Assembly (NCBI GenBank): GCA_018646675.1
Contig: JABGUH010000044.1
Coordinates: forward strand, 1 to 64,000
From: Bdellovibrionales bacterium
GTDB taxonomy: Bacteria > Bdellovibrionota > Bacteriovoracia > Bacteriovoracales > Bacteriovoracaceae
DNA: 64,000 nucleotides
Reading direction: 5' to 3'
Position numbers and translations under genes: made by a program. This document shows, one piece after another, positions 29,329 to 61,689 of the stretch (position 1 is its first letter; each line of letters starts with the position of its first letter). Below the pieces are notes generated by a model that saw only the letters and a program-made list of their open reading frames with translations, was not told where the DNA came from and did not search any database.

Positions 29329-31236
29329 TTGCGAGATAGAAGTTTATTTTGGTTCGTCGTAACTATTGGGGATTTGGTTTCAGTGGATCTAAGTGTTGAT
29401 AATGTAGGGCCTAGATTTACTCAAATTTTTGGGGATGATCGGTTGATCGAGTTAGAGACAACGACAGCGACTAGTGAGGAGTTATCAACATTAATTGTTG
29501 ATGACATCGTATCGCTAAATCAAGGACGTCACTTGATTGAACACCAGCAACTTGAGTTAGTCGCTGCTGATATTGATAAGTTGATTGCTGGCAATGTGGT
29601 GAAAATTTTCACGTTGGTGCTGGTTGACCAGTATGCGGCAGATCATATCTCTTTGCAAAAACACTATACCGTGGGAGATCGCTCCTTGAGGAGTATTCAC
29701 CACGTTCCCCGCATGAGCTCCCACGATCTTCCTGGTAACTATCGTTTGGAGTTAAGAGTTTTAATGACTGCCAGCTTTGCCAACCTTGATTCCAAACATC
29801 AAAAGGGGATCATTGCTAGTTTTAGGTTAGAGTGGTTCGATTTTGAGCGGGATATGGTCGACGCAGGCAGAACTGCTCCTTTGGCAAGAGGGCCTGATCT
29901 TCCTGAAGTTCTTAGGAAGGGTGGTTCAACCGTTGAAGAGATAGGAGAGAGTGGGCGCTCGTTGGCCAACTACTTTTCTGGTGGTAAATCTTTTTTTATC
30001 GCTAGCTATCAAGACTCAAGGGAGCTAATTGCTCAGTTTGTTCTGGTGGCAAAACAGCTAGATAAAAAGTCCGTTCTGTGGACATTTACTGATGGTTTGC
30101 AGGTTTTAGGAGATGATCAACGGGGAGCTCGTTACTATTATGATGACGATGTTCTTACACGGACTAAAATTGCACCACTAGATCTCTTCTCCTATATTAA
30201 AAGTGAGGGGAAGCGTGACACCATCTATCTATTGGAAGACTTTCACTACTATCTGACAAAAGAGAGTATGCACTCATCTGAATTTGTAGAGTTGATCTCC
30301 ATGATAAAGTCTATGAACTCTAGGTTGCAGGAGGATGGTAGTTTTATCGTTGTATTGTCGCCGACGACTAATCTGCCACCTGAAATAGCTCCGATCTTTG
30401 AAGTTATTCGTCACCATCTAGGGAAGAGTGAGCTGCTCTACCTTGAGAAGTATGGGACAGATCTAACTAAATTAGTGAAAGAGGGTAAGTTAAAGCCAGT
30501 CGTAGGACGAAACGAAGAGATTATTCAATGTCTAAAAGTTCTCTCTAAAATGGAGACGAATAATCCTCTACTGGTAGGGGCCGCAGGTGTTGGAAAGACC
30601 GCAGTGGTTGAAGGGCTGGCACAGATGTTGGCCGCCGGTAATGGCCCCAAACGTTTCATTAATAAGAGAGTAATCTCTTTGAACCTCAACTCGCTTGTCT
30701 CTGAGACAAAATATCGAGGTGAGTTCGAACAGCGTTTAGAAGAGATTCTTGATGAGGTACGCAGCAATGCTGATCGCTTGATTATCTTTATTGATGAGAT
30801 TCATACCCTGCTTAATTTAGGAGCAACCGAGGGGGCCGCCGGAGCAGGAAATATTTTAAAGCCAGTATTGGCCCGGGGAGAGTTTCCCTGTATTGGTGCC
30901 ACAACGCCAGAGGAGTTTGATCAGTTTATCGCAACTGACCAGGCACTTTGTCGGCGTTTTCAACTAGTTACAGTAGATGAACCTTCCGCTAAACAGACAC
31001 TGGATATATTAAGGGGTATAAAAGGAGTATTTGAGGAGCACCATCAGGTAGTTATCAGCGATAAATCGCTAATAATATGTGTCGAGTTAGCCGAAAGAAA
31101 TTTGTTAGAACAATCTTTTCCCGGCAAAGCAATCAAGATGCTAGATAGCGCTTGTGCTGCAGCCGCTTTTGAAAGTTTAGATGAGGTTAAACCGAATTTT
31201 ATAAAACATGAATTTGAAAGAATGAGGGGGTATTAG
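29329..31236 (+). CDS. AAA+ protein: Ycf46-like region plus Clp D1-type ATPase
   Basis: The protein has 635 residues. Residues about 200-375 resemble the degenerate N-terminal ATPase half of Ycf46 proteins (YLLEDFHYYL; FIVVLSPTTNLPPEI). Residues 375-630 are a single Clp/HSP100 D1 module: KPVVGRNEEI, Walker A GAAGVGKTAV, pore-loop region KYRGEFEQR, Walker B IIFIDEIHTLL, sensor IGATTPEEF. The second Clp ATPase (D2) and ClpP-binding loop are absent. Start is uncertain: TTG at 29329 or GTG at 29383. It begins a long operon and its stop is one base from the first actin gene, so it may remodel that filament. Confidence 0.75.
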   Translation: MRDRSLFWFVVTIGDLVSVDLSVDNVGPRFTQIFGDDRLIELETTTATSEELSTLIVDDIVSLNQGRHLIEHQQLELVAADIDKLIAGNVVKIFTLVLVDQYAADHISLQKHYTVGDRSLRSIHHVPRMSSHDLPGNYRLELRVLMTASFANLDSKHQKGIIASFRLEWFDFERDMVDAGRTAPLARGPDLPEVLRKGGSTVEEIGESGRSLANYFSGGKSFFIASYQDSRELIAQFVLVAKQLDKKSVLWTFTDGLQVLGDDQRGARYYYDDDVLTRTKIAPLDLFSYIKSEGKRDTIYLLEDFHYYLTKESMHSSEFVELISMIKSMNSRLQEDGSFIVVLSPTTNLPPEIAPIFEVIRHHLGKSELLYLEKYGTDLTKLVKEGKLKPVVGRNEEIIQCLKVLSKMETNNPLLVGAAGVGKTAVVEGLAQMLAAGNGPKRFINKRVISLNLNSLVSETKYRGEFEQRLEEILDEVRSNADRLIIFIDEIHTLLNLGATEGAAGAGNILKPVLARGEFPCIGATTPEEFDQFIATDQALCRRFQLVTVDEPSAKQTLDILRGIKGVFEEHHQVVISDKSLIICVELAERNLLEQSFPGKAIKMLDSACAAAAFESLDEVKPNFIKHEFERMRGY

Positions 31237-31237
31237 A

Positions 31238-32581
31238 ATGGCAGATCTATCTAAGTATACGGCGATTGGTGGTGAACTAGGAACATCAACATCTAAGTAT
31301 TGTTGTGATGACTCAATGGTCATCTTCTCATCAGTTACTGGTGATGCACTTACTAGTGCAATGGAAGAGAGTTGGAGATTAATGAATCGCTCCAATGACA
31401 ATCGTTGGATTAAAAACTTGGCAATCTATGATGATCGTCGCAAGAGTTGGCGCTACGTTGGAGCGATGACTAGATGTTCAGAGAAGACAAACTGGTTTAC
31501 TCGCAAGGGATTGATTCAAAACTATGATGATGCCTATCTATCAATTAAAGCGGGACTCTTTCTGCTTAATAATGATCGGATAGAGCGAAAACTCGCCCCT
31601 CTTGGCAAGGTCGGATTGGGATTTGGTATTACAGTTCGCCACGGTGAGAATGTTATTGATAAATTCTTTGCCTATTTGAAAGAGAACTTACAAAAAGATG
31701 GTGATCGAAAGATTATCAAGGTCAAGGCAAAAAATGTTGCTACTAATGAGACCCAAGAAGTTGACATTGAGCTGGATTTCGCAGTTATGCAGTATCAGGC
31801 TTACGGTGCCTATATGGCGATTCTCTTTAGTAAGTATAAGATGCAGGTTTACAATACCTACGTTATCGATATTGGACACGGTACTTGGATTAAGCTGCCA
31901 ATCGTAGAAAATGAGGCAGATATTAACCTGTCTGACTCGACTGCAGAAGGTATCTTCACGATCACCAAAAATATTTCTAAGGTTATCTTCGAAACATCGG
32001 GACAGAAATTTAAGATTCCTGAGCAACGGATCATGGAGAAGTTGCCATTGAAAAATTATGAATTAGAAGTTCCGGGGGCAGGGGTCTACGACTTTGGTGA
32101 GTTACTCAAACATGAGGCGACTCAGATGGCCCAATATATTGTCGAGCATGTTACTAATGACTTTGCAGCTCTCTCTCAGAAAGGTCACTCGATTGATTAC
32201 TATACGGTAATTGGTGGTGGTGCCCATCTGCTCTTTGATACAATTAAGGAAGAGATTGGAAATTATTTTGAGTGGCCGAAAGAGATTCGTGATGACAAGG
32301 TTATCCATCCATCCTCCTTGGGATTAGACCCACGTTATATCAACTGCGTTGGTTTTATGTTGTTGGCCCGTGATCAGATTGCCATGGAACATGATGCTGA
32401 TGTTGATCCTAACTTTGATCTAAAGCGAATTATTACTGACATTACTGATACCACTGGAACTAGTAAGAAGGGAGACGTTGGCAAGGTTCAGAATTTTGCT
32501 GAGAAAAAAGAGGACAAGAAAGAGGATAAGAAAAAAGAGGGTGGAGGAGATAAAGATAAAAAAGAAGGAGGGGCTGCCTAG
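31238..32581 (+). CDS. Actin-like ATPase 1
   Basis: The protein has 447 residues with the actin/ParM nucleotide-binding pattern: phosphate-1 GGELGTSTSKYCC, phosphate-2 YVIDIGHGTWIKL and adenosine motif VIGGGAHLLFDTI. It is clearly a paralogue of the actin part of 44882-46936 (GVEIGTSSSKFCC, YIIDIGHDTWMKL, IVGGGSHLLFETL). The C-terminal 45 residues are a Lys/Glu-rich disordered tail. It probably forms filaments like MamK or ParM but belongs to neither obviously. It is translationally linked to the AAA+ gene. Confidence 0.8.
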   Translation: MADLSKYTAIGGELGTSTSKYCCDDSMVIFSSVTGDALTSAMEESWRLMNRSNDNRWIKNLAIYDDRRKSWRYVGAMTRCSEKTNWFTRKGLIQNYDDAYLSIKAGLFLLNNDRIERKLAPLGKVGLGFGITVRHGENVIDKFFAYLKENLQKDGDRKIIKVKAKNVATNETQEVDIELDFAVMQYQAYGAYMAILFSKYKMQVYNTYVIDIGHGTWIKLPIVENEADINLSDSTAEGIFTITKNISKVIFETSGQKFKIPEQRIMEKLPLKNYELEVPGAGVYDFGELLKHEATQMAQYIVEHVTNDFAALSQKGHSIDYYTVIGGGAHLLFDTIKEEIGNYFEWPKEIRDDKVIHPSSLGLDPRYINCVGFMLLARDQIAMEHDADVDPNFDLKRIITDITDTTGTSKKGDVGKVQNFAEKKEDKKEDKKKEGGGDKDKKEGGAA

Positions 32582-34847: not shown

Positions 34848-34898
34848 TTAACAATAATTTTATTCGATAACAACAGAAATACAGCTGGAGTGTGTGCA

Positions 34899-36164
34899 AT
34901 GATTGAAGATGATGACAACATTTTGGAAAGATTGATTGGCGGTATCAAAACAGCAACAAATCCCAAGAGTGAGGATCAACTGCTTGAGCGGGTAACTGAG
35001 CTACAAGCTTCCGAGAAGAAGGTCTCTTCACTAGAAAACCTGGATACTTCCTTAGAGCTACCATCTAGCTTAAGAAAGGAGCAACCAGACTCTGGGCCGT
35101 CCGCCAGTGAGGGGGCAGCAGGATCAATCGCCCCTAGCACTAAGACTGGTAAAGGGGAGAAAAAGCAGGCCCCGGTGGGAACGATGGTTGGCTTGGATGT
35201 TGGTACCAGTCGAATTGTTGGTATCTCTATTGACCGTAGTAGTGATCCGAAGTCACGTCGAGAGCTAAATGCCTACTTTACTGTGCCCTATTCTGACTTT
35301 GCCAAGCAGATGCTAGAGAAGAATAGAATGCACTTCTCTCAACTTGGAGATGAGTTGGCCATCTATGGCTTTGATGCCCAGACTTTTGCCAATATGTTTA
35401 ACGGTGAAATTTTGCGCCCAATGCAGACTGGTCTTTTACGTCCAGATGATGAGCGTTCTTTACCAATGGAGAAAAAGATTATCGAGGCGGTAATTGGCCG
35501 TGCAGGAACATTGGGGGAGCACTGCTGTTTTTCAATTCCTTCACCAATTGTTGGACAAGAGAGTAACCTTATTTTTCATGAACAAGTTTTAAAGAAGTAT
35601 CTACTGGGAATGGGATATAAGGCGAAAGGGATCACAGAGGGGACGGCGGTAGTTCTGTCAGAACTTGCTTCCAGTAACTATACCGGTATCGGGATTAGTA
35701 TGGGAGCAGGGATGTGTAATGTCTGTTTCTCCTTCCTATCAGTGCCAATCGTAGTTTTTGGAACTGATCGTGGTGGTGACTATATTGATGCAAGCGTTTC
35801 ACGTGTCGTTAAAGAGCCGATGAACAAGGTTCGGTTGATTAAGGAGCAGGAGCTCAATTTAGGTAAAGCTCCAACTAGCAATCTTGAGAATGCACTTCAT
35901 GTCTACCATGAGGAGTTGATCTCTAATCTGCTTAGTACTCTCTCAACTATTTTGGCCAACGCCAGTAACTTTCCTCAGATTAATGAGGACATTCCAGTGG
36001 TAATTTCAGGGGGAACCTCTGCACCTGCAGGATTTAAGAGCAAGTTTGAGAAGGTGTTAAAGAATTATCGCTTACCAGTGCAGATTGGGGATGTGCGAGT
36101 GGCCAATGATCCACATATGGCAGTTGCTAAAGGGGCATTGATCTACGCAACTAGTATGCGTTAA
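34899..36164 (+). CDS. Actin-like ATPase 3 (MamK/MreB-like)
   Basis: The protein has about 421 residues. The first 90 are a disordered, charged extension. The actin fold then begins with phosphate-1 GLDVGTSRIVGIS, phosphate-2 GIGISMGAGMCNV, connecting motif DRGGDYIDASV and adenosine motif VVISGGTSAPAGF. Of the four actins here it looks closest to MamK/MreB, including the GGDYID segment. MamK-type filaments align magnetosomes. I chose the ATG at 34899, eight bases after GGAG, over GTG at 34890. Mad28, the second actin of some magnetotactic deltaproteobacteria, is an alternative relative. Confidence 0.8.
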   Translation: MIEDDDNILERLIGGIKTATNPKSEDQLLERVTELQASEKKVSSLENLDTSLELPSSLRKEQPDSGPSASEGAAGSIAPSTKTGKGEKKQAPVGTMVGLDVGTSRIVGISIDRSSDPKSRRELNAYFTVPYSDFAKQMLEKNRMHFSQLGDELAIYGFDAQTFANMFNGEILRPMQTGLLRPDDERSLPMEKKIIEAVIGRAGTLGEHCCFSIPSPIVGQESNLIFHEQVLKKYLLGMGYKAKGITEGTAVVLSELASSNYTGIGISMGAGMCNVCFSFLSVPIVVFGTDRGGDYIDASVSRVVKEPMNKVRLIKEQELNLGKAPTSNLENALHVYHEELISNLLSTLSTILANASNFPQINEDIPVVISGGTSAPAGFKSKFEKVLKNYRLPVQIGDVRVANDPHMAVAKGALIYATSMR

Positions 36165-37381: not shown

Positions 37382-37450
37382 CTTTAGTTAGTAAGTTAAT
37401 AGTTAATATGAGGCAATAGACTTAAATATTTGAGTTTTGGAGGAGTCAAG

Positions 37451-39922
37451 ATGAGTGTAGAACAGACGAGGGTACTGGTAGTTGATGAGGATCGAGCTTT
37501 TTTAACTGAGCTGGAGTCCTCTCTCGCTCAAGATTGTGAGGTGAAAACGGCTGAAAATACCAAGGATGCCCAGCTGGTATTTCAGACCTTCAAGCCGAAC
37601 ACTGTTATTTTAGATGTCAGTGCTTCAGGTGATGAGTCCTTTGTTGAGTTCTTCTCTAACATCAGGAGAGAGGATCGCAATGTAATCAGAATTGTCACCT
37701 CTAGCGACTATAATAATTTAGAGAACATCATGGATGCGATTAACCGCGCCCATGTTCATAAGTATCTTAAAAAGCCGATCGATATAGATGTTTTGCGGGC
37801 AACTTTACGCCAGACAACAACAGACTATAACGAGACCAAAGCAAGATATGCGGATGAGGAGAAAGGGGAGGCATATAGCAAGCTAAAGACTGTTCTCGAT
37901 ACCGCGAAAGAGGCTAGACAGCATCAGATGGATGCAGATAGCAAGCTGGAGCATGTCGCTGATATTGAAGTTGAAAGAAGACGTTATGCTGCCCACGTAA
38001 AAGAGCTTGAGGCGAGAATTGAGGCCGTTGGAAAAGAGAGCGAGGAGCTTGAGAAGAAGTGGCGGGGAACTGTCAATGAGGTTAAGACCGAGCGAGATGG
38101 ATTTCGGAGTGATCAGGAGAAAGCTGGTTTGGAAGTCCAACGATTAAAGCGTGAGGTTAAGCGTGAACAGGATAGCCGTGCTCATCAAGTTGCTGAAGTG
38201 GAGAGTGAGGCAAAAGGGCAGGTTAGTCAGACTGAAGAGTTGCGTGATCACCTTGAACGTTTGAAAACTGAAGCGGAAGATGCGGCACATATTCGTCAAC
38301 GTGAAATTGAGCAGGAGATGCATGGCCGGGACGAGTTGCGTGAGCAACTAGAGCGTACTAAGGCGGATCTACAGCAGGCGAAAGAGGAACGTAATTTCTT
38401 AGAGATGTCATTACGTGAATTAAAAATTGCTGCTGAGGCCAAAAAAGAGTCGCTGTTAGAAGTGACCGAAGATTTTACTCGTGTCAATCGGGTTAGAAAA
38501 AAAGGAATGGATTCTGTACTCTTTGTAGATAAAGAGGATAGTAATCTTGAAAATTTAAAGCAGATGTTTAGTAAGACCTACAATGTCTATACTGCCAGGA
38601 GTGCAGATGAGGCAATGAAGTCTCTGGGATTAAACAGTGATATCTGTGTTGTTGTTACTGACCAGCTGATTAGTGCTGGCAATGGCTTGGAGTTGGCCGA
38701 GAGAGTAAGTAAGAGTAATTTAGATCTACCTGTTTTCTTACTTTCTGGACGTAATGATGCTGAGTTAATGAAAAAGGCGATTAACTCTGGAGTGGTGACT
38801 CGCTTTATTGAGAAGCCGCTACGGCGAGAAGTTATGATGGAGAACTTGAAAGCTGGTTGTGATATGTTTGACCAGCGTTCAGGAAGATCATTTGTTCTTA
38901 ACAAGAAGAAAGCATTTGTGATTGACTCTATGCAGGCGATGAAAGAGCAAGTGAAGCGGATGGAGTTCCAAGTTTCCGATGAGAGAAAATCCATGTTACT
39001 TAAAATGGATGATGAGCGTTCGGCCTTAGATAGAGAGGTGGCAGAGCGCAGAACTGTTCTTGATGTAGAGCTTAGGGAGCTGGAGTCAGAATTTGGTAAA
39101 AAACGAGAGGTGCAGAATACAAATTTTGAGCAGCAGCGCGACTCACAGAATAGTGAATTTGAAGCGCAAAGAGAAGAGCAGCGGCAACACTTTGCCAAAT
39201 TGGCCGAGGAGAAAGAGCAAGAGAAGCGAGAGATGTTAGAGCAGATCGAGGCTGATCAGTTGAAGGCCAGAGCAGATATGGAAGCTGAACGCGCTCGTTT
39301 TGATCAAGAGCAAAAAGCGCATCAAGAGAAGATGGATAAGGACCTTAAAGAGAAGACTGAAGAGTTTGAGCGTATCGCCAAAAGAAAAGAGGAAGAGCAA
39401 GGCGGTATCATTGATAAGATTGAGAAAGAGCAGCGAGAGATGCGTGATGATCTAGAGAAAGAGAAGAAGGAGCTACGTGAGAAGATTGAGAAAGAGAAGA
39501 AAGATCACTTTGAAAAGATGAAGAGTGAGAAGGATAAGTTTGCTGATGAGAAGAAGCGACTATTAGAGGATATGAAAGAGGACTTAAAGCGTAAGACAGA
39601 TGATGTAGAGGAGAAGTTAAAGGAGCAGAGTGAGCGCTTCCAGGAAGAGCAAGGTGATCTACGTAAGCAGAATGAGGAAGATCGTCAACGTATGTTGGAT
39701 GAGAATGACCAACGCAAGCAAGCTACTGTTACTGAGCTTGAAGCCGTTCAGAAGACCTTCCATCAAGAGGTAACTCGTAAACGAGGCGAGCTTGATAAAG
39801 CGATTGAGATGGAGAAGCAGAAGGCGAAAGCGCAAAGTGGAGCACTGGAAGAGTTACAGGCGAAGTATGATATGTTGTTAGAATCTCGTGAGGCACTTGA
39901 AGCAGAACTGGCCTCTAGGTAG
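37451..39922 (+). CDS. Double-receiver coiled-coil scaffold protein
   Basis: The protein has about 823 residues from the ATG at 37451 (GGAGGAG upstream). Receiver 1 (residues 5-120) has VVDEDRAF, the phospho-Asp in VILDVS and Lys in KYLKKP. A coiled coil follows (130-340). Receiver 2 (350-470) has FVDKEDS, Asp in VVTDQLI and Lys in FIEKP. Then a very long, highly charged coiled coil runs to the end. Both receivers keep the key Asp. No output domain is present, so it is probably a phosphorylation-tuned scaffold. It is the last gene of the operon, before a strong terminator. Confidence 0.8.
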   Translation: MSVEQTRVLVVDEDRAFLTELESSLAQDCEVKTAENTKDAQLVFQTFKPNTVILDVSASGDESFVEFFSNIRREDRNVIRIVTSSDYNNLENIMDAINRAHVHKYLKKPIDIDVLRATLRQTTTDYNETKARYADEEKGEAYSKLKTVLDTAKEARQHQMDADSKLEHVADIEVERRRYAAHVKELEARIEAVGKESEELEKKWRGTVNEVKTERDGFRSDQEKAGLEVQRLKREVKREQDSRAHQVAEVESEAKGQVSQTEELRDHLERLKTEAEDAAHIRQREIEQEMHGRDELREQLERTKADLQQAKEERNFLEMSLRELKIAAEAKKESLLEVTEDFTRVNRVRKKGMDSVLFVDKEDSNLENLKQMFSKTYNVYTARSADEAMKSLGLNSDICVVVTDQLISAGNGLELAERVSKSNLDLPVFLLSGRNDAELMKKAINSGVVTRFIEKPLRREVMMENLKAGCDMFDQRSGRSFVLNKKKAFVIDSMQAMKEQVKRMEFQVSDERKSMLLKMDDERSALDREVAERRTVLDVELRELESEFGKKREVQNTNFEQQRDSQNSEFEAQREEQRQHFAKLAEEKEQEKREMLEQIEADQLKARADMEAERARFDQEQKAHQEKMDKDLKEKTEEFERIAKRKEEEQGGIIDKIEKEQREMRDDLEKEKKELREKIEKEKKDHFEKMKSEKDKFADEKKRLLEDMKEDLKRKTDDVEEKLKEQSERFQEEQGDLRKQNEEDRQRMLDENDQRKQATVTELEAVQKTFHQEVTRKRGELDKAIEMEKQKAKAQSGALEELQAKYDMLLESREALEAELASR

Positions 39923-41219: not shown

Positions 41220-42245
41220 ATGCTAAGTGAATTGGCAAATATTATTGAAATCAACCAGGTGGTATTTGCATATATCTTTTTGCCTTTTGTCTTGCTATTG
41301 ACTGCATTGATGGTGGTCGTCAGGTTGGTCATCCTGCATTTTTGTCGCCAGGATCGGAAGTATTTTCAACAGATAAAACAGGGCGCCAGACAGTTTATTA
41401 ATAATGAGCATATGGGTGAGCAGCAGATAGAATTTTCGGTAGTAGTAGCAGATATTGCACGAACCGCCTATGTTCAGTATCAGTTGAAGAGTAATCTGAC
41501 TGGTAAGGTCAATGATATATTGGCCTATAAAAAACATCTTGCTGGCCTGAAGGATGGTATTGTAGAGACAAGTAAGCTTGAGGTAGGAGGTGATTCTGCC
41601 GTTTTGAATATCGCAATGATGGCCAGTAGAGTACTTGCCACTCCGACTACGTTATGGCGCAATTTGAACTGGCCCTCTTTTCATCTATTGGCCAGAGTGT
41701 CCAACATTCTTCCTACTTTCCTTGTTATTATCGGCGCTCTGGGAACACTACTCTCAATCACGCTAATTGTGCCTGAAATTGCTATTTGGGTGCCCTCTGG
41801 TGCGGATAAGGTTAGCTCTTTTGAGTTGATTACTAGTTATTTGGGAGGCACTTTTAACTTTCTCATCCTTTCGGTTATATTTGCACTCCCGATGGCGGTC
41901 TTCAATCATCTTTTAGCAGTTGAAGGAGAGTTGGCCCGAACTAATTATATATTGAAAGAGGGGATTGAGGAGTTGGCAAATCATGTCAGCTTGTTTAATC
42001 GTAATCTTAAAAAAATGGAGAGCGAGCAGATCGAACAGCGGATGTTGAGTGAGATGCACAGTATCAGAGAGCAGATAGGGATTTTGATTGCTCGACCCGT
42101 TGCAACAGGTGGCGGTCCTTCTCGTGGTACCTATACCTCATCAGGTGCGCCAGGATTAAAATTGGTCGGGAATGCGAAGCCCAAAGAGCGTATGAACTAT
42201 CGTGAACTTCGCTCAAAAAGCAAGCAAAAGAAGGTAAGCTTTTAG
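41220..42245 (+). CDS. MotA/TolQ-like membrane protein with conserved basic tail
   Basis: The protein has 341 residues with an N-terminal helix (FLPFVLLLTALMVVVRLV) and a long cytoplasmic loop. The helix pair near 165-240 has ILPTFLVIIGALGTLLSI, the glycine-rich pattern of MotA/TolQ/ExbB channel subunits. The last 33 residues (GAPGLKLV, KPKERMNYRELR, QKKVSF) match the tail of the 175-residue protein at 32641. It follows the OmpA-like gene by 25 bases, so the pair resembles a MotAB/ZorAB-type complex. Energy coupling is uncertain because the partner lacks the acidic residue. Confidence 0.65.
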   Translation: MLSELANIIEINQVVFAYIFLPFVLLLTALMVVVRLVILHFCRQDRKYFQQIKQGARQFINNEHMGEQQIEFSVVVADIARTAYVQYQLKSNLTGKVNDILAYKKHLAGLKDGIVETSKLEVGGDSAVLNIAMMASRVLATPTTLWRNLNWPSFHLLARVSNILPTFLVIIGALGTLLSITLIVPEIAIWVPSGADKVSSFELITSYLGGTFNFLILSVIFALPMAVFNHLLAVEGELARTNYILKEGIEELANHVSLFNRNLKKMESEQIEQRMLSEMHSIREQIGILIARPVATGGGPSRGTYTSSGAPGLKLVGNAKPKERMNYRELRSKSKQKKVSF

Positions 42246-42326: not shown

Positions 42327-42869
42327 ATGGCGGTAACACAAGCTAATGCCGGTGCGGCAGCAAAAGGCGCTGGGGCCAGTAAGGGAATCAGCTTAGGGTT
42401 GGGACTTGGACTTGGAATATATGGACCAATTCTACTGGCTTCAATTTTGGGTGCTGGAGGTTATTTAGGTTATCGTTACTGGAAGAATAGTCAGGAAGCA
42501 TCTGACGGCCAGAAGGAGAAGGGTAAGGAGAAGAGACCGTCAGTTTTGACTCCAACTGTTGCTGCCAGTAAGAAGGTCAATAATGCTCCGGTTAAACCGC
42601 TTGCTCACTCTGAAAAAATGGCAACTCCAGTAGCACCAAGGCCAGCGGCCAGTGATGTTAAAAAGGGGCCAAGAGAGGACTCTACAGATAATAAAATTCA
42701 AAATGCTCTAAAGACCGCTGCCTCAAAAAACTTTACTCTGAAGTTAGACAGTAAGCTAGGTGGAGGCAAGCCAGATGGAAAGAACAAGCCAGCTGCGGCA
42801 CCTCATAGTAAGCCGGCCACTGCTGCACCCAAGAAACCAGTTACTAATACTGGAAATCGAAAAAAGTAA
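42327..42869 (+). CDS. Mms6/MamD-like protein with long basic tail
   Basis: The protein has 180 residues. Residues 23-34 read LGLGLGLGIYGP, the LG-repeat signature of Mms6-type magnetosome proteins with Tyr in place of Trp, followed by a membrane helix (ILLASILGAGGYLGY). The C-terminal 125 residues are rich in Lys, Ala and Pro and are disordered and basic, unlike the acidic iron-binding tail of Mms6. A good GAAGGAG precedes the ATG. It follows the MotA-like gene in the same direction and its stop lies within a 12-base-pair hairpin. Confidence 0.7.
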   Translation: MAVTQANAGAAAKGAGASKGISLGLGLGLGIYGPILLASILGAGGYLGYRYWKNSQEASDGQKEKGKEKRPSVLTPTVAASKKVNNAPVKPLAHSEKMATPVAPRPAASDVKKGPREDSTDNKIQNALKTAASKNFTLKLDSKLGGGKPDGKNKPAAAPHSKPATAAPKKPVTNTGNRKK

Positions 42870-43993: not shown

Positions 43994-44629
43994 CTATTTC
44001 AATTTTTGGTATGCTTGGACTACATCTTGAAATTTCTCTTTGGCACTCTCCTGGGCCTCCTCATTGTGGTTAACATAGCGATCAGGGTGAAACTTGGCGG
44101 CCAGGTTCAGGTAGGCGCGATGGAGCTCCTTGGGACCCACTTCTGGGGTCACCCCCAGGGTATCGTAGAGAGTTTCACGATCAATCACGGTTAAATTGGA
44201 GATTAGGCTGGCGAGTTCTTGTTCCCATTGAGTGCGGCTGAGATACATCGGCATTGCCGCTTGCTCTAAAATCTGCATATCTCGATCATCAATAACCCCA
44301 TCTAGCTGGGTAAAGGTGACCATCAGGCGTAAAAGCTCCCGTTTACTCTCTGGAGTAAGATTTTTACCCAGGGAGAAGAAGAAGCTGCGGATTTTAGGAG
44401 TGGAGTTCTCCCCTTTGGTGGTCGTGGTGAGAATCAGTTGAGTGAACTCCTCCACCATCTGGCGTGGGATAATTTTCTGGCAGCGCTGGCGGATGTTCTG
44501 CTCTACCTGACTGGTCTTACGTCTCTCCAGCCGATGGGCGAGGTACTGGGCATAGTGGATAAATCCCATCAAGATATTGGTCTGTTGGAGTATATTAGGG
44601 ATAACACTTCCGAGCTTTTTTACTGTCAC
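43994..44629 (-). CDS. TerB-like and J-domain protein (DjlA-like)
   Basis: The 211-residue protein starts at GTG with AAGG upstream. Residues about 50-135 are helical and TerB-like (FTQLDGVIDDRDMQILEQAA). The last 65 are a J-domain with the HPD motif (AAKFHPDRYVN) that stimulates Hsp70 (DnaK). DjlA has the same order but a membrane anchor; none is seen here. The open frame continues upstream without an alternative start. It may recruit DnaK to organelle or filament proteins. Confidence 0.75.
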   Translation of the reverse strand: MTVKKLGSVIPNILQQTNILMGFIHYAQYLAHRLERRKTSQVEQNIRQRCQKIIPRQMVEEFTQLILTTTTKGENSTPKIRSFFFSLGKNLTPESKRELLRLMVTFTQLDGVIDDRDMQILEQAAMPMYLSRTQWEQELASLISNLTVIDRETLYDTLGVTPEVGPKELHRAYLNLAAKFHPDRYVNHNEEAQESAKEKFQDVVQAYQKLK

Positions 44630-44881
44630 TAACGCCTTGTGTCCGCGAGCGACGGCCCTCCCCAGTCGGTAGATCGATCTTTGAAAGAGATGGTTAAACT
44701 TAATAACATCACCTACTGCATTTGATAGTTGAGTTGTGCTACTAAGATCAACATATTTTAGATAAAAAATATACTGAATAATTCATCTATCGTTTATAAT
44801 TATTAACATATTAGTATCTAGTTTAAATGGTGATCTGCTAGTTCATTTTGGGTGGCATCACTTAGCGAGATAGGTTGAACT

Positions 44882-46936
44882 ATGGATATAACTAATCTAT
44901 TTATGCCAATTGGAGTTGAGATTGGGACCAGCTCTTCAAAATTCTGCTGTCAAGAGGTGGTGGTGGGAGTGGGTTCCACTGTCGGCGCAGCTATGGATGA
45001 TGAGTTGGAGCAGGAGTGGGTCCAACTAAATGATGGAGTAGATCAGGGCTGGGCCAGTAATCTTTCAGTCTTTGATCCGATCAGGAAAAAATGGTTTTAT
45101 CTTGGAGGAATGGCAAGTAATTCAGCGGAATTGCGTACCTTCACCGAAGATTCCTTGCGGGATCCACATGACATTTTACTAATGCTCCTAGGGGGGCTAT
45201 TTCTCATAGATATTGAGATGAGTAACAATAAACAGATGTTAAATCAGGTTGGACTCTGTTTGGGGGCCCCCTCTAATTTGCTGCTTAATTTAGAAGGAGA
45301 TGTCAAATTAGCCGATTTCTTAACCGAGCATCTGGTAGATGGTGCTCTACCGATTAAGGTAAAAAATGTAGTAACGGGAGAGGTCTGTGAGCGTGTTTTA
45401 AATGTGGTATTTGTTAGTTTAAAACATATCGCCTTTGGTGCCTATACTGCACTTCTCTACAGTCGTTTTGAGCAGGTTCATCATAATGTCTACATTATCG
45501 ATATTGGACATGATACCTGGATGAAGTTACCAATTATAGATAATGAGGCGATGATTGCATTCTCCCAGGTAACGAAGGGAGCTGTTTCGCATATCTTAAG
45601 AGAGGTGATTGAATATATCCATATTGAGAGTGGCAAACGCCTGAATCTTACGCCAGAGAAGTTGATTGAGAAGGTGACCAAGGAGGATTACGTTGTTGAT
45701 ACCGGTAAGGAGAAATTAAGCTTTGTTACCGCTATGGCCGATCACATCCAGATGTTGGCCGATGAAATTCATACTAAGGTTGTGGGTGATATTGAGACTC
45801 TTTTAGAGAAGGGATCTTATATCGATTATTTTTTAATTGTTGGAGGAGGTTCACACCTGCTGTTTGAAACCCTTAAGCGTAAGCTGCAAAACTATCACAG
45901 TTGGGATAACGAGGTGACAAGAGAGCGTGTATTTAACCCGATCGATATGGGACTAGACCCTCGCTATATTACCGCAGTCGGCTTTATGTTTTTGGCCGGT
46001 GAGGAGATTAAAAGTTATGACTCCATGGAGGGGTTTGAGCTGAAAGTAGATCGGCTCACTGATATCACTGGTGGTTTAGAGACAACATTTCATCTAAAGA
46101 AAGGGGGGCTAGATTCTGTACTAGTGATCAATGATGATGAGCTCTTTTTAACGATGGTGGCCGATAAGCTCTCCTATCAATATAACATCTATACCGCTAA
46201 TAGTTTTGAGGCTGGGATAGAGGAGTTTGAGCAGAATTCAGATATTGAGATTGTCCTGGTTCGTAGTTATCTGCCGGGGGGAATGAGTGGGGTTGATTTT
46301 GCCTATCAGTTGAAAGATAAGAGTCGGATCTCCACTGTGGTCTTGATGGCCGATGATGATAGCGGTTACTCGATTGGCAAAGCAATTGAGGATAGCACAA
46401 TCGCTTTCTGCCTGAGTGGCCATCCCAAAGAGGATGATCTACGCCAGGTAATTAAGCATGCATTGGCGATGCACCAGAGCAATATTGCCAAACGAAAAAT
46501 TATTGCTGACCACGAGACAGAGGTGGGAGTTGAGATGCGTGAGATGGGTCGAAAGCTCAAGACTGCTTTTGAGAGTAACCACAACCTGTTAGATGAGATC
46601 AATCGTTTGCAGCGAGATATCCGGGAAGGAGAGTATCAGACTAATAATTTAAAGATGGAGTTGGATGATCGTGCCAGTGAGTTTAAGACCGTTCAAGAGG
46701 AGCATCAGCAGCTTAAGGATCATATTAAAAACCGAGAACAAGAGATGGTGGGGCTACTTAAACAGGTGGACCAGCATATCAAGTCAAAGGATAGCGCGGT
46801 AGCTGAACTTCAAAAAAGTGAGCGTAACTTAAAGCGGAATATTGCCACTTTGGAGGATCGGGTTGGCTATCTCAATGAGGGACGTGAGATGCTATTGGCC
46901 CAGATGGAGCAGTTACAGAAATTTAGTGCTGAATAA
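44882..46936 (+). CDS. Actin-like, pseudo-receiver and coiled-coil fusion protein
   Basis: The protein has 684 residues. Residues 1-395 are an actin-like ATPase: GVEIGTSSSKFCC, YIIDIGHDTWMKL, IVGGGSHLLFETL. Residues about 415-535 are a receiver-like domain (SVLVINDDELFLTMVADKL). The phospho-Asp position reads VLVRSYLP and the usual Lys position reads CLSGHP, so it is probably a pseudo-receiver. Residues 560-684 are a coiled coil. The actin part is paralogous to the one at 31238. I know of no described actin-receiver fusion. It stands alone between intergenic regions, so it may have its own promoter. Confidence 0.8.
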   Translation: MDITNLFMPIGVEIGTSSSKFCCQEVVVGVGSTVGAAMDDELEQEWVQLNDGVDQGWASNLSVFDPIRKKWFYLGGMASNSAELRTFTEDSLRDPHDILLMLLGGLFLIDIEMSNNKQMLNQVGLCLGAPSNLLLNLEGDVKLADFLTEHLVDGALPIKVKNVVTGEVCERVLNVVFVSLKHIAFGAYTALLYSRFEQVHHNVYIIDIGHDTWMKLPIIDNEAMIAFSQVTKGAVSHILREVIEYIHIESGKRLNLTPEKLIEKVTKEDYVVDTGKEKLSFVTAMADHIQMLADEIHTKVVGDIETLLEKGSYIDYFLIVGGGSHLLFETLKRKLQNYHSWDNEVTRERVFNPIDMGLDPRYITAVGFMFLAGEEIKSYDSMEGFELKVDRLTDITGGLETTFHLKKGGLDSVLVINDDELFLTMVADKLSYQYNIYTANSFEAGIEEFEQNSDIEIVLVRSYLPGGMSGVDFAYQLKDKSRISTVVLMADDDSGYSIGKAIEDSTIAFCLSGHPKEDDLRQVIKHALAMHQSNIAKRKIIADHETEVGVEMREMGRKLKTAFESNHNLLDEINRLQRDIREGEYQTNNLKMELDDRASEFKTVQEEHQQLKDHIKNREQEMVGLLKQVDQHIKSKDSAVAELQKSERNLKRNIATLEDRVGYLNEGREMLLAQMEQLQKFSAE

Positions 46937-47117
46937 CTGATAAATAGAGATCTTAAACTTCTGTTACATTACACCTCTTGCCCCCCCTTTTTTGCTTAAA
47001 TGCCTGTTTTTACAAGGTTCACTTGTAAGATAAGTAAGTTAATCACCATATAAATAAAATAATAGCTTATGTTTTTTACCATATTGGTCGATCTACTACT
47101 TGACTCTAATAACAAAT

Positions 47118-47132
47118 TGAGATAAAATCTCA
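47118..47132. promoter_or_regulatory. Palindromic operator candidate TGAGA-N5-TCTCA (copy 2)
   Basis: TGAGA TAAAA TCTCA sits in a longer 21-base palindrome (9-base arms AATTGAGAT and ATCTCAATT, 47115-47135), 36 bases before the 21-codon gene. The core matches the site at 43856-43870. Confidence 0.5.
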
Positions 47133-47167
47133 ATTATAAAAACTGCCAACGAGGCGAGGAGAATATT

Positions 47168-47233
47168 ATGGGACTTGAAATTGCACTATTAGGAATGTTG
47201 GCCGGCTACTACTGGGTAGGCCTTACTGAGTAA
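47168..47233 (+). CDS. 21-aa hydrophobic peptide
   Basis: The 21-codon ORF starts MGLEIALLGMLAGYYWVGL. It is preceded by AGGAG at good spacing and by the operator-like palindrome, which makes translation likely despite the size. It is hydrophobic enough for one membrane helix. It is followed 70 bases later by another small hydrophobic protein. Small membrane proteins such as MamI and MamL act in magnetosome formation, but no homology is claimed. Confidence 0.5.
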   Translation: MGLEIALLGMLAGYYWVGLTE

Positions 47234-47303
47234 AACTAGTTAATAGCTGCTAGTAACTATCTACTAGTTCTTGCGGATCACTTTTTATAAGTATGGAGTG
47301 AAC

Positions 47304-47525
47304 ATGATGATAACGAGACAAAGTCGCAATGTGGCCCAGCCGGCAACAGTATTTGGTCTTAAGGTCACACTGGGGGTCGGTTTAGGTATTCTAGCAGGAG
47401 TTACCACTGCGCTAGTGGCCACCCCGGTGATGGGAGTTGCACTGCCTGTAATTGTTGCAACCAAAACGGGTTGTATTGCAGGTGGGGCGACTGGAATGTT
47501 GAAGGGACTCCAGGACGAAAGCTAA
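47304..47525 (+). CDS. Small Gly/Ala-rich two-helix membrane protein
   Basis: The protein has 73 residues from the ATG at 47304 (GGAG upstream). Two hydrophobic stretches near 17-40 and 43-62 are rich in Gly, Ala and Val (LGVGLGILAGV; VMGVALPVIVA). This recalls the composition of MamC/Mms13 and other small magnetosome proteins, but I see no alignment strong enough to name it. It probably shares a transcript with the 21-aa peptide. Confidence 0.55.
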   Translation: MMITRQSRNVAQPATVFGLKVTLGVGLGILAGVTTALVATPVMGVALPVIVATKTGCIAGGATGMLKGLQDES

Positions 47526-47532
47526 GGGGTGA

Positions 47533-48309
47533 TTAGCGTAGATTTCTCACTATTGCCATCGCTACGTCATGGCGAATCTTTGAGGCATTAGATAGCGTAT
47601 TAAACAGCCGAGACTCCATCTGAACTGCTATTTGAAGTTCAAGAAAAAGATCACTAATACTCTCTTGATAACGATTCATGCTCTGTTCGATATAGAGTGT
47701 GCTATTTTTAACCTCTGAAATTTGATCATTCCATGCAAGTTCCTGTTGTGAGGAGATCTGCACTAGTTGAGCTTCAACCAATTGGTTACTTTTCAGATCC
47801 TGCTGTAGCTCTTGTAGTCTGCTCTTGGCAGCCTGAAATTGGCGTGCTTTGAAGATGATATAGGGGGCAACTCGCTCCACCGTTACTCTAGTAATATATT
47901 GGTTTAGCTGGTTTAGTGATAGCTGGGTAGTCGTATTGCCAAGATCGTTAATCAGCTGGCGGAAAAGTCTGCTGGCCAATCTATTTTTACCGGCCAAAGT
48001 AACTGCAGCGATCCTCTCTAGTTGTCTTAGTATCTTTGGATACTTTTTCAGTTGGGCCGGGGCACCTGGGGGGAGGCTTGCGGCCCGCCCGATATGTTCG
48101 AAAAAGTCTATATGTCCATCTTGGGTGGGAAATTTGTGGATGGTAAGGTTCTTATAGTGATGAAGAACATTAATTGTTGGATTCACTGTTCGTAGCTCCA
48201 AGCTCTGCCTGAAGTTCAGCTCCATTAAAGGTCCTGCCAGCAGAGCATTTGAAGCACTGATCAGTGTAATAATTGTTACAAGTAGTGATATGCGGTAAGT
48301 AGAGAGCAC
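47533..48309 (-). CDS. Exported helical protein of unknown function
   Basis: The 258-residue protein has a signal peptide (SLLVTIITLISASNALLAGP). The mature part is mostly helical with long amphipathic segments (QFQAAKSRLQELQQDLK; MNRYQESISDLFLELQ), suggesting a helical bundle in the periplasm. No cysteines or metal motifs were noticed. A Fur-box-like site lies about 86 bases before its start, so it may be iron regulated. It is convergent with the small membrane-protein genes. Confidence 0.6.
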   Translation of the reverse strand: MLSTYRISLLVTIITLISASNALLAGPLMELNFRQSLELRTVNPTINVLHHYKNLTIHKFPTQDGHIDFFEHIGRAASLPPGAPAQLKKYPKILRQLERIAAVTLAGKNRLASRLFRQLINDLGNTTTQLSLNQLNQYITRVTVERVAPYIIFKARQFQAAKSRLQELQQDLKSNQLVEAQLVQISSQQELAWNDQISEVKNSTLYIEQSMNRYQESISDLFLELQIAVQMESRLFNTLSNASKIRHDVAMAIVRNLR

Positions 48310-53893: not shown

Positions 53894-54201
53894 TGTTTAA
53901 CATTCAAAGATAATGGGAGGGGGTTTAATGCAATTGCCCTGAGGCTGGCCACTGGTTGCTATGGGATTTTATCTCAAAAATCATTGACTAAAATGGTATT
54001 TCCCCTTAAAATACTGGCTTGGGGTACACTTTGTCTCAATAATGTCACGTTGAGTGCTAATGGATTGAGTTTAAGTAGATCATTTCTAGGCTACTTATTA
54101 TGGCTAAATTAGGGGGTGATCTTTGCTTGGCTTGACTGGTTTGGGGTCAGAGTATCAAATAATGGGGTCTTCAGTTGTCATGTACGTAAGGGGTGGTAGT
54201 T

Positions 54202-56199
54202 ATGTCTATCTTTAAGTCAAATGAAAGTAGTGATGTGGTTAAAAAAACTATTTGGGATCGTGATGGTGGATCAAGTGATGCCATCGCCCTCATCGGTGGT
54301 GGTAACGTAGGTAAAGAGACGCTATTGGAGGGATTGACCAAAAATATCCCTTACGAAAAGAGCTACCCCGAAACCTCAGTATTGATGCAGTATGGGCGAA
54401 TTGCTGGTAGTAAGCAGCCTATTTTTAATGTTCCTGGCGATCTGCTTTTTAGTTCGGCCAGTGATGGTGAGTTTATTGCCAAGCGGATCTTCTTTGAAGA
54501 GCGGGCAAATAAAATTATCTTTGTCGCCGATGCCAAAAATCTCAAGGCTTCTCTGGCCCACTTCCTTTATTGTAGTGAGTTCGGATTACCGATGATCTTC
54601 AACGTAAATATGATTGATCAGGCACAACTGCAGGGGATTGAGATTGATCTTCCCAAGTTGGAGCAGCTACTAGGTACAAAGGTTCATACCACTATTGGTA
54701 TCGAGCGCATGGGGGTAAACCAGTTACGTGATCTATTAGATGGCCAGCTTCCGGAAGCACACTCTGTTCTCTACCCTGAAGTATTAGATAACTACCTTAG
54801 TATGTTCTCCAAGTTGTTACCAGATGCTGGAGTAGGAGTGAAGCAGTTGGCCCTCTCCCTTTTAGTCGGCGACAAATTTGCTACTAAGTATTTTGAGCAG
54901 AAATTTTCCAGTGAGCAACGCCAAACAGTGAATAGTTTGATCTCCAGTGTGAAGAGTCAATTTAGTCGGGAGATCAGTAACTACCTATTTGATATCTATC
55001 ATAATCGGGCAGAAGAGATCTATGGCCAAGTCGTTACGACTAAGGAGAGATCATACTCCCTTTCGCTGGAGGGGAAATTTGGCATTTGGTCGCGTAACTT
55101 AACAACCGGAATTCCCATTGCGGTTGTTATTATTGCAGCAATGTTTTTTATTGTTGGGCGCTTCGGTGCTGAGTGGTTAGTCGGATGGACCGAAGGGGTA
55201 TTTTTTGGAGAGATTCTAAATCCCATGGTGGAGGGTTGGTTGGCCACAATCAATACCCCATTTTTAACTGATATGATTGTGGGAGAGTTTGGCTTGCTTA
55301 GTGTGGGGATTACCCTGCCGATAGGCTTGGTTGGACCGGTACTGCTAACCTTTTACTTCTGCTTTAACCTGCTGGAGTCATCGGGCTATCTTCCCCGTTT
55401 GGCAATTCTATTTGATCGTCTATTTAAGAAGATGGGAATGAGTGGCAAAGGGGTAATTCCGCTAATTATGGGCTTCTCCTGTATCACCATGGCGATTATT
55501 ACCACTCGTCTGTTAGATACCAATCGTGAGCGTAATATGGCGACCCTACTACTTTTGGGTATTCCCTGTGCACCGCTATTTGGTATGATCATGGTGTTGT
55601 TGGCCGCCATGCCAGCTTCAGCTTACCTCGCCGTCTTTGGAATTATCTTTCTGCGAATGCTTCTGGTGGGATTTGTTAGTAATAAACTCTTTCGTCATCA
55701 GGAGTCTAACTTTTTAATGTCAGTTCCCCCCTTGGTTTTTCCTAGCGTCTTGTTATCGGTAAAGGCAGCTTTTCGTCAGAGTTACGCTTTCCTTAAAGAG
55801 GCACTTCCAGTCTTTCTCTATGCCACTTTTGCGGTATTTCTTCTGGATCAAGTGGGTGGTATTACCTTTATTGAGAATATCTGCAAGCCGATTTTAAATG
55901 ATTGGATTGGTCTGCCAGTTCAGAGTACTAGCGTATTCATCATGTCTTTTATTCGTCGTGAAGCAGGGGTCGCTCTGCTTAAGCAGTTTGTCGATGCTGG
56001 GATTTTTAATAACGTTCAGATTATTATAAATCTACTACTAATCTCCTTTTTGGTTCCATGCATCAATGCGGTTATCGTAATTGTTAAAGAGCGAGGCTGG
56101 AAAATAGCCGTCTCTTTTAGTGCGTTTACTATTGTCTTTGCCATCGTGATGGGATCGGTATTAAACTTTAGTTTTCAATATTTCAATGTAACATTTTAA
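54202..56199 (+). CDS. FeoB-like ferrous iron transporter with divergent GTPase domain
   Basis: The protein has about 665 residues (ATG at 54202, GGGG upstream). The N-terminal domain follows the FeoB G-protein plan but key motifs are altered: G1 is GGGNVGKET (Glu after the P-loop Lys), G3 is NVPGD in place of DxPG, while G4 NMID is intact. The membrane part is FeoB-like: LLESSGYLPRLAILFDRLFKKMGMSGKGVIP, in pieces, then GFSCITMAI and IPCAPLFGM at the two gate cysteines. FeoB moves Fe(II) through the inner membrane. Magnetotactic bacteria often carry an extra FeoB near magnetosome genes. GTP use by this copy is doubtful. Confidence 0.8.
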   Translation: MSIFKSNESSDVVKKTIWDRDGGSSDAIALIGGGNVGKETLLEGLTKNIPYEKSYPETSVLMQYGRIAGSKQPIFNVPGDLLFSSASDGEFIAKRIFFEERANKIIFVADAKNLKASLAHFLYCSEFGLPMIFNVNMIDQAQLQGIEIDLPKLEQLLGTKVHTTIGIERMGVNQLRDLLDGQLPEAHSVLYPEVLDNYLSMFSKLLPDAGVGVKQLALSLLVGDKFATKYFEQKFSSEQRQTVNSLISSVKSQFSREISNYLFDIYHNRAEEIYGQVVTTKERSYSLSLEGKFGIWSRNLTTGIPIAVVIIAAMFFIVGRFGAEWLVGWTEGVFFGEILNPMVEGWLATINTPFLTDMIVGEFGLLSVGITLPIGLVGPVLLTFYFCFNLLESSGYLPRLAILFDRLFKKMGMSGKGVIPLIMGFSCITMAIITTRLLDTNRERNMATLLLLGIPCAPLFGMIMVLLAAMPASAYLAVFGIIFLRMLLVGFVSNKLFRHQESNFLMSVPPLVFPSVLLSVKAAFRQSYAFLKEALPVFLYATFAVFLLDQVGGITFIENICKPILNDWIGLPVQSTSVFIMSFIRREAGVALLKQFVDAGIFNNVQIIINLLLISFLVPCINAVIVIVKERGWKIAVSFSAFTIVFAIVMGSVLNFSFQYFNVTF

Positions 56200-56235: not shown

Positions 56236-56886
56236 ATGAATAGAAAATATGAAGAGGTACTAGAGGCGATCTACACTTCCGGCGAGAAGGATTACCACTC
56301 GTTGGCAAAAATAAAAGAGCAGTGTCATATCGAGGTGGATGATGACCTGTTGGTCAGTATGGAGAAAGAGGATCTAATTATCATTAATGGCAGTGATGTT
56401 CTTTTTACTCAGAATGGAACACGTGAGGCCACTCGCCTAATTAGACGGCATCGTCTGGCCGAAAGTTTACTGGCTTCAGCCATGCAGACGGATCATAAGA
56501 GGATGGAGGAGATCGCCTGTGAGTTTGAGCATGCGATCTATCCAGAGATTGAAGAGAGTATCTGTACTCTCTTGGGACATCCAACTCACTGTCCTCACGA
56601 CCGGGAGATTCCTCAAGGAGAGTGTTGTAAAAACCAGGTGACGACAATTGAGCAGAAGGTGAAGACCCTATCTGATTTGGCCGTTGGTCAATCGGGTCGA
56701 GTTACCTACTTTAAGACTGATGACACTTCAAAACTGGTTAAGTTACAGCAGTTGGGTATTCGTAAGGGAGTAGTCTTGGGCGTGCAGCAGAAGTATCCGA
56801 CATTGGTGGTTAGCTATGAGGATCAAGAGGTAGCGATGGACCAAACAGTAGGAGAAGACATCTATTTAGTCCAGACCAAATCCTAA
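56236..56886 (+). CDS. DtxR-family metalloregulator with FeoA-like domain
   Basis: The protein has 216 residues. An N-terminal winged helix (residues 1-65) is followed by the DtxR dimer and metal-binding domain: RRHRLAESLL, EIACEFEHAI and HPTHCPHDREIPQGECC. The C-terminal 75 residues form a FeoA/SH3-like domain (LAVGQSGRVTYF; LGIRKGVVLGV). DtxR proteins bind Fe(II) or Mn(II) and repress iron genes; FeoA assists FeoB. It follows feoB by 36 bases, so it probably controls and assists that transporter. Confidence 0.85.
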   Translation: MNRKYEEVLEAIYTSGEKDYHSLAKIKEQCHIEVDDDLLVSMEKEDLIIINGSDVLFTQNGTREATRLIRRHRLAESLLASAMQTDHKRMEEIACEFEHAIYPEIEESICTLLGHPTHCPHDREIPQGECCKNQVTTIEQKVKTLSDLAVGQSGRVTYFKTDDTSKLVKLQQLGIRKGVVLGVQQKYPTLVVSYEDQEVAMDQTVGEDIYLVQTKS

Positions 56887-57447: not shown

Positions 57448-58200
57448 TCAACAGGCTTTAACTATTGCCAAAAAATCACTCGTTTTAAGACTGGCCCCAC
57501 CCACTAGCGCACCATCTACATTGGGCAGACCAAGAATCTCCGCAGCATTGTCTGGTTTTACGCTGCCGCCGTACTGAATTCTAACCTTAGCAGCAATATC
57601 ACTGTTAAATCTCCTCTCAATGACTTTTCTGATAAAAAGGTGCATCTCATCTATCTGTTCGGAGGTGGCAACTTTGCCAGTACCAATCGCCCATACTGGC
57701 TCATAGGCGATGACGATCTTCTCCATTTCCGTAGACTCTATCTGGGCCACTCCATTGATTACCTGTTCTCCGACAATGTCATAGTGTTGGTTCTGTTCAC
57801 GATGCTCTAATCGCTCGCCGACACATAAGATCGGTTTAAGGTTTTTTGCCAATAGTGTTTTTACCTTTTGGTTAATAAAATCATCACTCTCTAAAAAATA
57901 TTCACGACGTTCAGAGTGGCCAACAATTACATATTCACACCCTAGCTCTACTAAAAAAACAGGGGAGATCTCACCGGTGAATGCCCCCTGATCTTTTGGG
58001 TGAACATTTTGGGCGGCCAAAGAGATGGGAGTATCTTGTAAGACCTCTGCCGCTGTTCCAAGAGATGTGAAGGGGGGAGCGATAACAACTTCCACCTGGC
58101 CTGGCCACTTATGTCCCACCTTTAGCTCGCCGGCCAGTTGGGCGGTCTGGCAGCGGTTCAGATGCATTTTCCAGTTACCAGCAATGATTGGTGTTCGCAT
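57448..58200 (-). CDS. tpiA: Triosephosphate isomerase
   Basis: The 250-residue protein has all TIM signatures: NWKMHL (Lys), GHSERREYF (His), AYEPVWAIGTGKVA (Glu and loop 6) and QYGGSVKPDNA (phosphate loop). It interconverts dihydroxyacetone phosphate and glyceraldehyde 3-phosphate. It is the last gene of the microcompartment operon, where it can drain the triose phosphate made by the adjacent class II aldolase. No encapsulation peptide was seen. Confidence 0.95.
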   Translation of the reverse strand: MRTPIIAGNWKMHLNRCQTAQLAGELKVGHKWPGQVEVVIAPPFTSLGTAAEVLQDTPISLAAQNVHPKDQGAFTGEISPVFLVELGCEYVIVGHSERREYFLESDDFINQKVKTLLAKNLKPILCVGERLEHREQNQHYDIVGEQVINGVAQIESTEMEKIVIAYEPVWAIGTGKVATSEQIDEMHLFIRKVIERRFNSDIAAKVRIQYGGSVKPDNAAEILGLPNVDGALVGGASLKTSDFLAIVKAC

Positions 58201-58204
58201 ATCG

Positions 58205-59597: not shown

Positions 59598-59609
59598 TAT
59601 CTTACTCCC

Positions 59610-60521: not shown

Positions 60522-60530
60522 AGAATTCCC

Positions 60531-60803
60531 CTATTCTTTAATCGACACGCAGTCGACCACTCCAACAATTACTGAGTGAAATGGATCTTCCTTGGTCCCT
60601 AAAAGTTGTCTCGCGCAGTTTCCTTCCTGCTCTACTAAGACCACATCTCCGGCCCCGGATTTTACCGTGTCACAAGAGAGAAATGGTGAGCCTTGATCAT
60701 CACCATTTTCATCCACCGGTTGTACAATCATTATCTTATGCCCTCGAAAACAAGGGAGCTTGTGGTCTGAAACAATATTTCCTTTTACTCGCGCCAAAAT
60801 CAT
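60531..60803 (-). CDS. Microcompartment vertex protein (EutN/CcmL, BMC-P)
   Basis: The 90-residue protein begins MILARVKGNIVSDHK and contains KIMIVQP and GAGDVVLVEQEGNCARQ, with VGVVD near the end. This is the EutN/CcmL fold, whose pentamers cap the shell vertices. It is one of two adjacent copies. Confidence 0.9.
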   Translation of the reverse strand: MILARVKGNIVSDHKLPCFRGHKIMIVQPVDENGDDQGSPFLSCDTVKSGAGDVVLVEQEGNCARQLLGTKEDPFHSVIVGVVDCVSIKE

Positions 60804-60809
60804 CTTTAG

Positions 60810-61118: not shown

Positions 61119-61121
61119 ATC

Positions 61122-61679: not shown

Positions 61680-61689
61680 CTAACTCCCT

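Follow-up and report, generated by a model that had tools for sequence, protein, structure and literature searches.

An actin-like protein fused to a receiver-like domain and a coiled coil is encoded in the magnetosome (mad) region of a Bdellovibrionota genome, and sequence comparison indicates that both members of a gene pair conserved in related genomes are represented in this one protein. We analyzed a 64,000-nucleotide stretch of this genome (assembly GCA_018646675.1, contig JABGUH010000044.1), hereafter the window. Within it, a single ATG-started open frame of 684 codons (44882-46936, plus strand) runs without interruption through the three domains, in the order proposed by an earlier reading made from the sequence alone. 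The features discussed below are collected in Table 1.

Table 1. Features of the fusion gene and of the surrounding magnetosome region (positions within the window).
Feature	Position	Strand	Basis
AAA ATPase preceding actin A, with synteny in relatives; candidate Mad27	29329..31236	+	
Actin A, paralogue without fused domains; identity to orthologues in related loci 49-76%	31238..32581	+	sequence comparison
Mad28-type actin with SxGxG phosphate-2 site	34890..36164	+	Volactin Pfam match, 1.5e-72
REC-CC-REC-CC protein; receiver 2 and coiled coil are the closest relative of the fusion C-terminal half	37430..39922	+	BLASTP, alignment scores
MamD/MamG-type Gly-Leu-repeat membrane protein	42327..42869	+	NCBIfam MamD 4.9e-8, MamG 2e-7, below cut-off
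Fusion gene: actin-like domain, linker, predicted pseudo-receiver, coiled coil	44882..46936	+	single open frame
Actin-like domain, diverged paralogue of 31238-32581	44882..46012 (residues ~1-377)	+	31-38% identity to 14 relatives; AlphaFold2; Foldseek
D211 codon; phosphate-2 loop DIGHDT vs DxGHGT in 14/14 relatives	45512..45514	+	alignment, invariant count
Predicted pseudo-receiver and start of alpha5	46112..46486 (residues ~411-535)	+	Pfam Response_reg 1.3e-5; AlphaFold2; Foldseek
R461 codon at the phospho-acceptor Asp position	46262..46264	+	alignment
Predicted coiled coil continuing receiver alpha5	46487..46930 (residues ~536-683)	+	continuous helix in model; weak C-terminal block resemblance
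FeoB (DtxR-like gene at 56236-56886)	54193..56199	+	

The fusion gene is preceded by an oppositely oriented DnaJ/TerB-like gene (43994-44629, minus strand); on its other side, the first long gene (47533-48309, minus strand) runs toward it. A promoter and terminator scan of 44600-47600 gave a site count not above that of shuffled sequences. Just downstream of the fusion, at ~47350-47540, a frame encodes a small glycine-rich membrane protein (FGLKVTLGVGLGILAGV), possibly another magnetosome membrane protein.

The N-terminal half had been read as a full actin-like ATPase. The actin part of this claim stands. Scanned alone, residues 1-401 matched Pfam MreB-like_C (4.1e-5) and Actin (0.0087), both under the curated cut-offs. 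AlphaFold2, given 14 actin relatives as the alignment, modeled most of residues 5-377 at pLDDT 70-95, the loop at 77-90 being poor, and a Foldseek search of the PDB with this model returned Ta0583 first (E 1e-14, TMt 0.76), followed by ParM, Alp7A and CorM. Judged by the match of the model to Ta0583, residues 5-377 have the fold of the actin-like ATPase superfamily; searching PDB sequences with a profile built from the actins gave no match. The words “full ATPase” proved too strong, because the phosphate-2 loop has Asp in place of its second Gly, which does not vary among the 14 relatives (G211D, giving DIGHDT). The nucleotide motifs EIGTS and VGGG and the connect-2 Gly are retained.

With the fusion as query, the sole other actin-type match in the genome was the protein encoded at 31238-32581 (actin A), which is 37% identical to the actin half; identity to the 14 relatives ranges from 31 to 38%. 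The tree places the actin half on a very long branch of 5.9 changes per site. By these comparisons, the actin half is a clear but very diverged paralogue of actin A. Among 107 residues invariant in the relatives, 58 are kept in the fusion and 49 are changed, and because of these changes, the long branch and G211D, ordinary polymerisation may have been lost. Retention was uneven, with 28 of 37 invariant residues kept in the nucleotide motifs and 30 of 70 elsewhere (Fisher p 0.002), which argues for selection on the nucleotide pocket.

Actin A itself apparently has no name in the literature searched. Its identity to orthologues is 64-76% across Bdellovibrionota and several related loci, and ~49-56% in three loci of Planctomycetota and Myxococcota-type genomes (L034-L036). 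We rejected an assignment of either actin A or the fusion to MamK, as the NCBIfam MamK model (NF040964) matched neither. The phosphate-2 motif of Mad28 is SxGxG (PMC10653835); the Mad28-type actin of the window carries it (SMGAG), whereas the fusion reads DIGHD at residues 207-211. On the basis of this motif, and because a separate Mad28-type actin is present in 8/8 genomes with actin A, we likewise rejected Mad28 as the identity of actin A and of the fusion. In L034-L036, almost none of the tested mad genes lie near the actin A relatives; L035 has FeoB nearby and L036 a weak match to actin-like B, a protein described below. This scarcity suggests that actin A proteins may predate magnetosomes or be more widespread than these.

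We next consider the C-terminal half. Residues 402-539, scanned alone, matched Pfam Response_reg at 1.3e-5, with 25.8 bits and thus below the gathering score of 30.2, and phmmer gave matches to receivers such as HupR and RegX3 (0.003-0.005). An AlphaFold2 model of the C-terminal 294 residues, with seven neighbor-family receiver rows in the alignment, reached a mean pLDDT of 85 and showed the alternating β/α fold of a receiver at residues ~411-516; the best Foldseek matches in the PDB were all receivers, most with TMt 0.7-0.88. Structure prediction of residues 415-535, which the sequence-only reading had proposed as a check, thus returned a receiver fold. In a full-length model whose alignment held no receiver rows, this region was unfolded (pLDDT <50); the structural case for a receiver therefore depends on the receiver-2 alignment together with the independent Pfam match. 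The evidence pointing to a receiver consists of Pfam, phmmer, homology to receiver 2 and the model. As had been proposed, a coiled coil appears to follow: in the model, the last helix of the receiver runs on unbroken for ~167 residues (model 127-293, protein 517-683).

The nearest non-actin match to the fusion in the whole genome, which has 51 receiver matches in all, is the REC-CC-REC-CC protein encoded at 37430-39922 (BLASTP with the receiver and coiled coil, E 1e-7). The second receiver of this protein (its frame given as 37451-39922) had been noted before as similar in placement; the resemblance extends to the sequence itself and favors the suggested link between the two proteins. Orthologues in related loci gave 2e-7 (L027) and 3e-6 (L032). 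In local alignments, the fusion receiver scored 63-114 against domains of the receiver-2 type and 50-67 against receiver 1, receiver 2 being ahead in every protein where both were scored, and the segment KKG-DSVL preceding the receiver is common to the fusion and receiver 2 of the family. A receiver tree also grouped the fusion with receiver 2, at a weak support of 84/72 that falls short of proving descent. The last 30 residues of the fusion resemble the end of the REC-CC family, with the top position correct and a shuffle p of 0.015; 8 of 7243 null windows scored equally high, which makes this a modest support. A mixed MAFFT alignment of actins and receivers was dropped, as receiver rows were forced into the actin region, and L026:7236-9191 was rejected as an orthologue, being a different protein with two receivers. 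The orthologue in genome G061, of the same family as the window genome, has 1471 residues and three receivers (L032:16057-20469), with Glu at the phospho-site of receiver 2 and Asn at that of receiver 3, which means that phosphorylation was lost more than once in this protein family.

The relationship between the two halves becomes apparent in the relatives. In five related loci (L025, L027, L028, L030 and L033), the receiver/coiled-coil orthologue is the immediate upstream neighbor of actin A, as at L025:7998-11206, where its stop codon overlaps the start codon of actin A by one base, and at L027:3171-6625; in L032 and G059 it occurs elsewhere in the same cluster. Because of this adjacency in five loci, we read the fusion as joining two halves of a conserved gene pair. 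Neither the adjacency nor the paralogy of the actin half had been recognized in the sequence-only reading. Fusion of proteins that are operon neighbors elsewhere is a classical hint of binding, the “Rosetta stone” case, and would here hint that actin A and the receiver/coiled-coil protein bind each other. The conserved pair may be a more general discovery than the fusion.

The same fusion was found in no genome besides that of the window, neither among 129 genomes of the order and class nor among 369 genomes of the phylum, and it was absent from the 13 actin A loci of GTDB, which were scanned with exact peptide patterns that could miss strongly diverged fusions. Two candidates were rejected: a 664-aa frame in L036, whose additional N-terminal part comes from spurious read-through ahead of the probable true start, and a match over residues 8-478 in L027, which covers two adjacent genes. 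The search for the same domain order proposed earlier thus found none, and the earlier statement that no actin-receiver fusion has been described agrees with the open-access literature, in which we also found none.

Occurrence in a single genome raises the possibility of a decaying duplicate, in which a copy of actin A was fused by chance to a receiver/coiled-coil copy and has since drifted without function. Such decay would fit the extreme branch length and the fact that 49 of the 107 conserved residues, G211 among them, have been lost. However, the 684 codons have acquired no stop or frameshift despite the divergence, the nucleotide-motif residues were preferentially kept (p 0.002), the receiver core is still recognized as a receiver by its score, and the model predicts one long unbroken helix. 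We therefore regard decay as unlikely.

The genomic context, whose magnetosome nature the sequence-only reading had overlooked, bears on the role of the fusion. Contig C2 of the genome carries the mamAB operon and encodes MamA, MamQ, two MamB/MamM-type transporters, and MamE-type and magnetochrome proteins, with a Mad23 relative adjoining these genes. The NCBIfam matches on this contig were significant yet under the equivalog cut-offs, as expected for a deep branch. In the window, the order AAA ATPase, actin A, a 175-aa protein, actin-like B, a 166-aa protein, Mad28-type actin, PilZ/MinD and REC-CC-REC-CC is syntenic with the magnetosome regions of relatives, and a second Gly-Leu protein of the MamD/MamG/Mms6 type is encoded at 28503-28898. 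FeoB and/or DtxR also adjoin the mad cluster in four related loci (L024, L025, L030 and L031). Magnetotactic Bdellovibrionota have been reported to possess Mad28, with no canonical MamK found (PMC13200544). The host is probably a magnetic bacterium related to Bdellovibrio.

Several further observations were made in these regions. Actin-like B (33168-34295, starting MSRPDKKIFVDAGVFYTK), whose gene comes after that of actin A in the syntenic loci, is a third, very diverged actin-like candidate with no significant Pfam or NCBIfam match. The 175-aa protein (32641-33168) and a TolQ/MotA-like membrane protein (41220-42245) have a common C-terminal motif, KPKER-NYR-LR-K--QKKV-F, a possible common docking peptide. 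One cluster, L027, contains two Mad28-type actins (10628-11686 and 13021-14262) with receiver and histidine kinase genes between them. Beside the magnetosome region of the window, 57448-63998 was recognized by eye as a bacterial microcompartment-type locus with shell proteins, deoxyribose-phosphate aldolase, class II aldolase, an RnfC/PduS-like protein and aldehyde dehydrogenase.

The fusion could also be a functional actin acting outside magnetosomes, for example in cell shape or DNA segregation, that merely lies near the cluster. It is a single gene 5 kb beyond the mad block, between oppositely oriented neighbors and followed by unrelated genes, and the actin A relatives in L034-L036 lack tested mad matches except weak ones. 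Nevertheless, the fusion is flanked by MamD-type, FeoB and mad genes, and actin A was detected in 8 of the 369 Bdellovibrionota genomes, exactly the 8 that also encode a Mad28-type actin. A role away from magnetosomes accordingly seems rather improbable to us.

The nature of the source, a draft of the metagenome-built kind in 47 contigs from which alone the fusion is known, raises the question of an assembly chimera, in which an actin A paralogue was spliced to a fragment of another receiver/coiled-coil gene. The junction argues against this: it is in frame, follows a tail matching that of actin A, and coincides with the stretch found just before receiver 2 in the partner family. The three parts have G+C contents of 0.425, 0.44 and 0.45, compared with 0.435 in the window as a whole, and neither half was found separately elsewhere in the genome. 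We consider an artifact of this kind very unlikely.

The receiver itself appears to have lost its phosphorylation chemistry. The sequence-only reading had noted VLVRSYLP at the phospho-Asp position, and alignment with the second receivers of related proteins indeed puts R461 in the phospho-acceptor column. The β4 Thr/Ser is replaced by A490 and the β5 Lys by G513, and the switch aromatic is lost. Because all four are replaced, we class the domain as a pseudo-receiver, whose sequence excludes phosphorylation at the normal site; that a true phospho-regulated receiver controls the actin is scarcely credible, even with a receiver fold and retained acidic residues (NDD) at the end of β1.

Taken together, we see an even chance that the fusion is a lineage-specific magnetoskeleton adaptor working by protein binding. 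It would have arisen through duplication of actin A and fusion of the copy with that half of the operon partner which contains receiver 2 and the coiled coil. The actin domain would bind nucleotide and join or cap filaments of actin A (or Mad28), while the coiled coil may dimerise or bundle with coiled-coil proteins of the magnetosome chain, comparable to Mad25-Mad28 in RS-1. The pseudo-receiver could offer a phosphorylation-independent docking surface for another component, as in FrzS. Through these contacts, the fusion would tether the filament to its coiled-coil partner at a fixed 1:1 ratio. The earlier proposal that filament dynamics are coupled to signaling through protein binding remains plausible. 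A bolder version, which we think improbable, is that this is the first actin with a built-in pseudo-receiver hub, derived from a conserved operon pair of actin and receiver/coiled-coil genes: as a hetero-filament subunit, it would let a signaling partner bind the magnetosome filament directly and, independently of phosphorylation, connect the positioning of the magnetic chain with a pathway of chemosensing or cell polarity.

Magnetosome chain assembly is known mainly from MamK of Alphaproteobacteria, and knowledge of Mad28 and the Mad coiled-coil proteins is recent and comes from RS-1. The present locus suggests that actin A is an additional actin-like protein of this kind, with a receiver/coiled-coil protein as its partner, encoded directly upstream of it in five related loci. 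As a natural “Rosetta stone” case, the fusion predicts that the halves bind and provides a single construct for testing this. If our reading is true, a receiver fold would here act as a fixed docking module of the cytoskeleton, which would be unusual.

Among known systems, ParM, Ta0583, CorM and Alp7A are the closest solved folds to the actin half, but they are only 12-17% identical and have no fused receiver or coiled coil. The REC-CC-REC-CC protein shares with the fusion receiver 2, the beginning of the coiled coil and perhaps also the C-terminus; its orthologues differ in being separate genes without an actin domain, most with two receivers and most with an intact receiver-2 Asp. FrzS and AglZ of Myxococcus xanthus, compared by architecture alone, likewise have a pseudo-receiver followed by a long coiled coil, and FrzS works through these without Asp phosphorylation (PMC1974792); unlike the fusion, they are motility proteins with an N-terminal receiver and no actin domain. 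FrzS was absent from the 20 PDB sequence matches listed. MamK is similarly an actin-like protein of magnetosome clusters, but it lacks both receiver and coiled coil, and its NCBIfam model does not match the fusion. A further parallel is Mad28 of deep-branching magnetotactic bacteria, an actin-fold protein encoded in the magnetosome region that acts beside coiled-coil Mad proteins (PMC12748827, PMC12713370, PMC10653835) and in RS-1 interacts with the coiled-coil Mad25 (PMC12748827). The fusion has the same fold and the same type of genomic setting, whereas its phosphate-2 site reads DxGxD in place of SxGxG and it belongs to another actin family.
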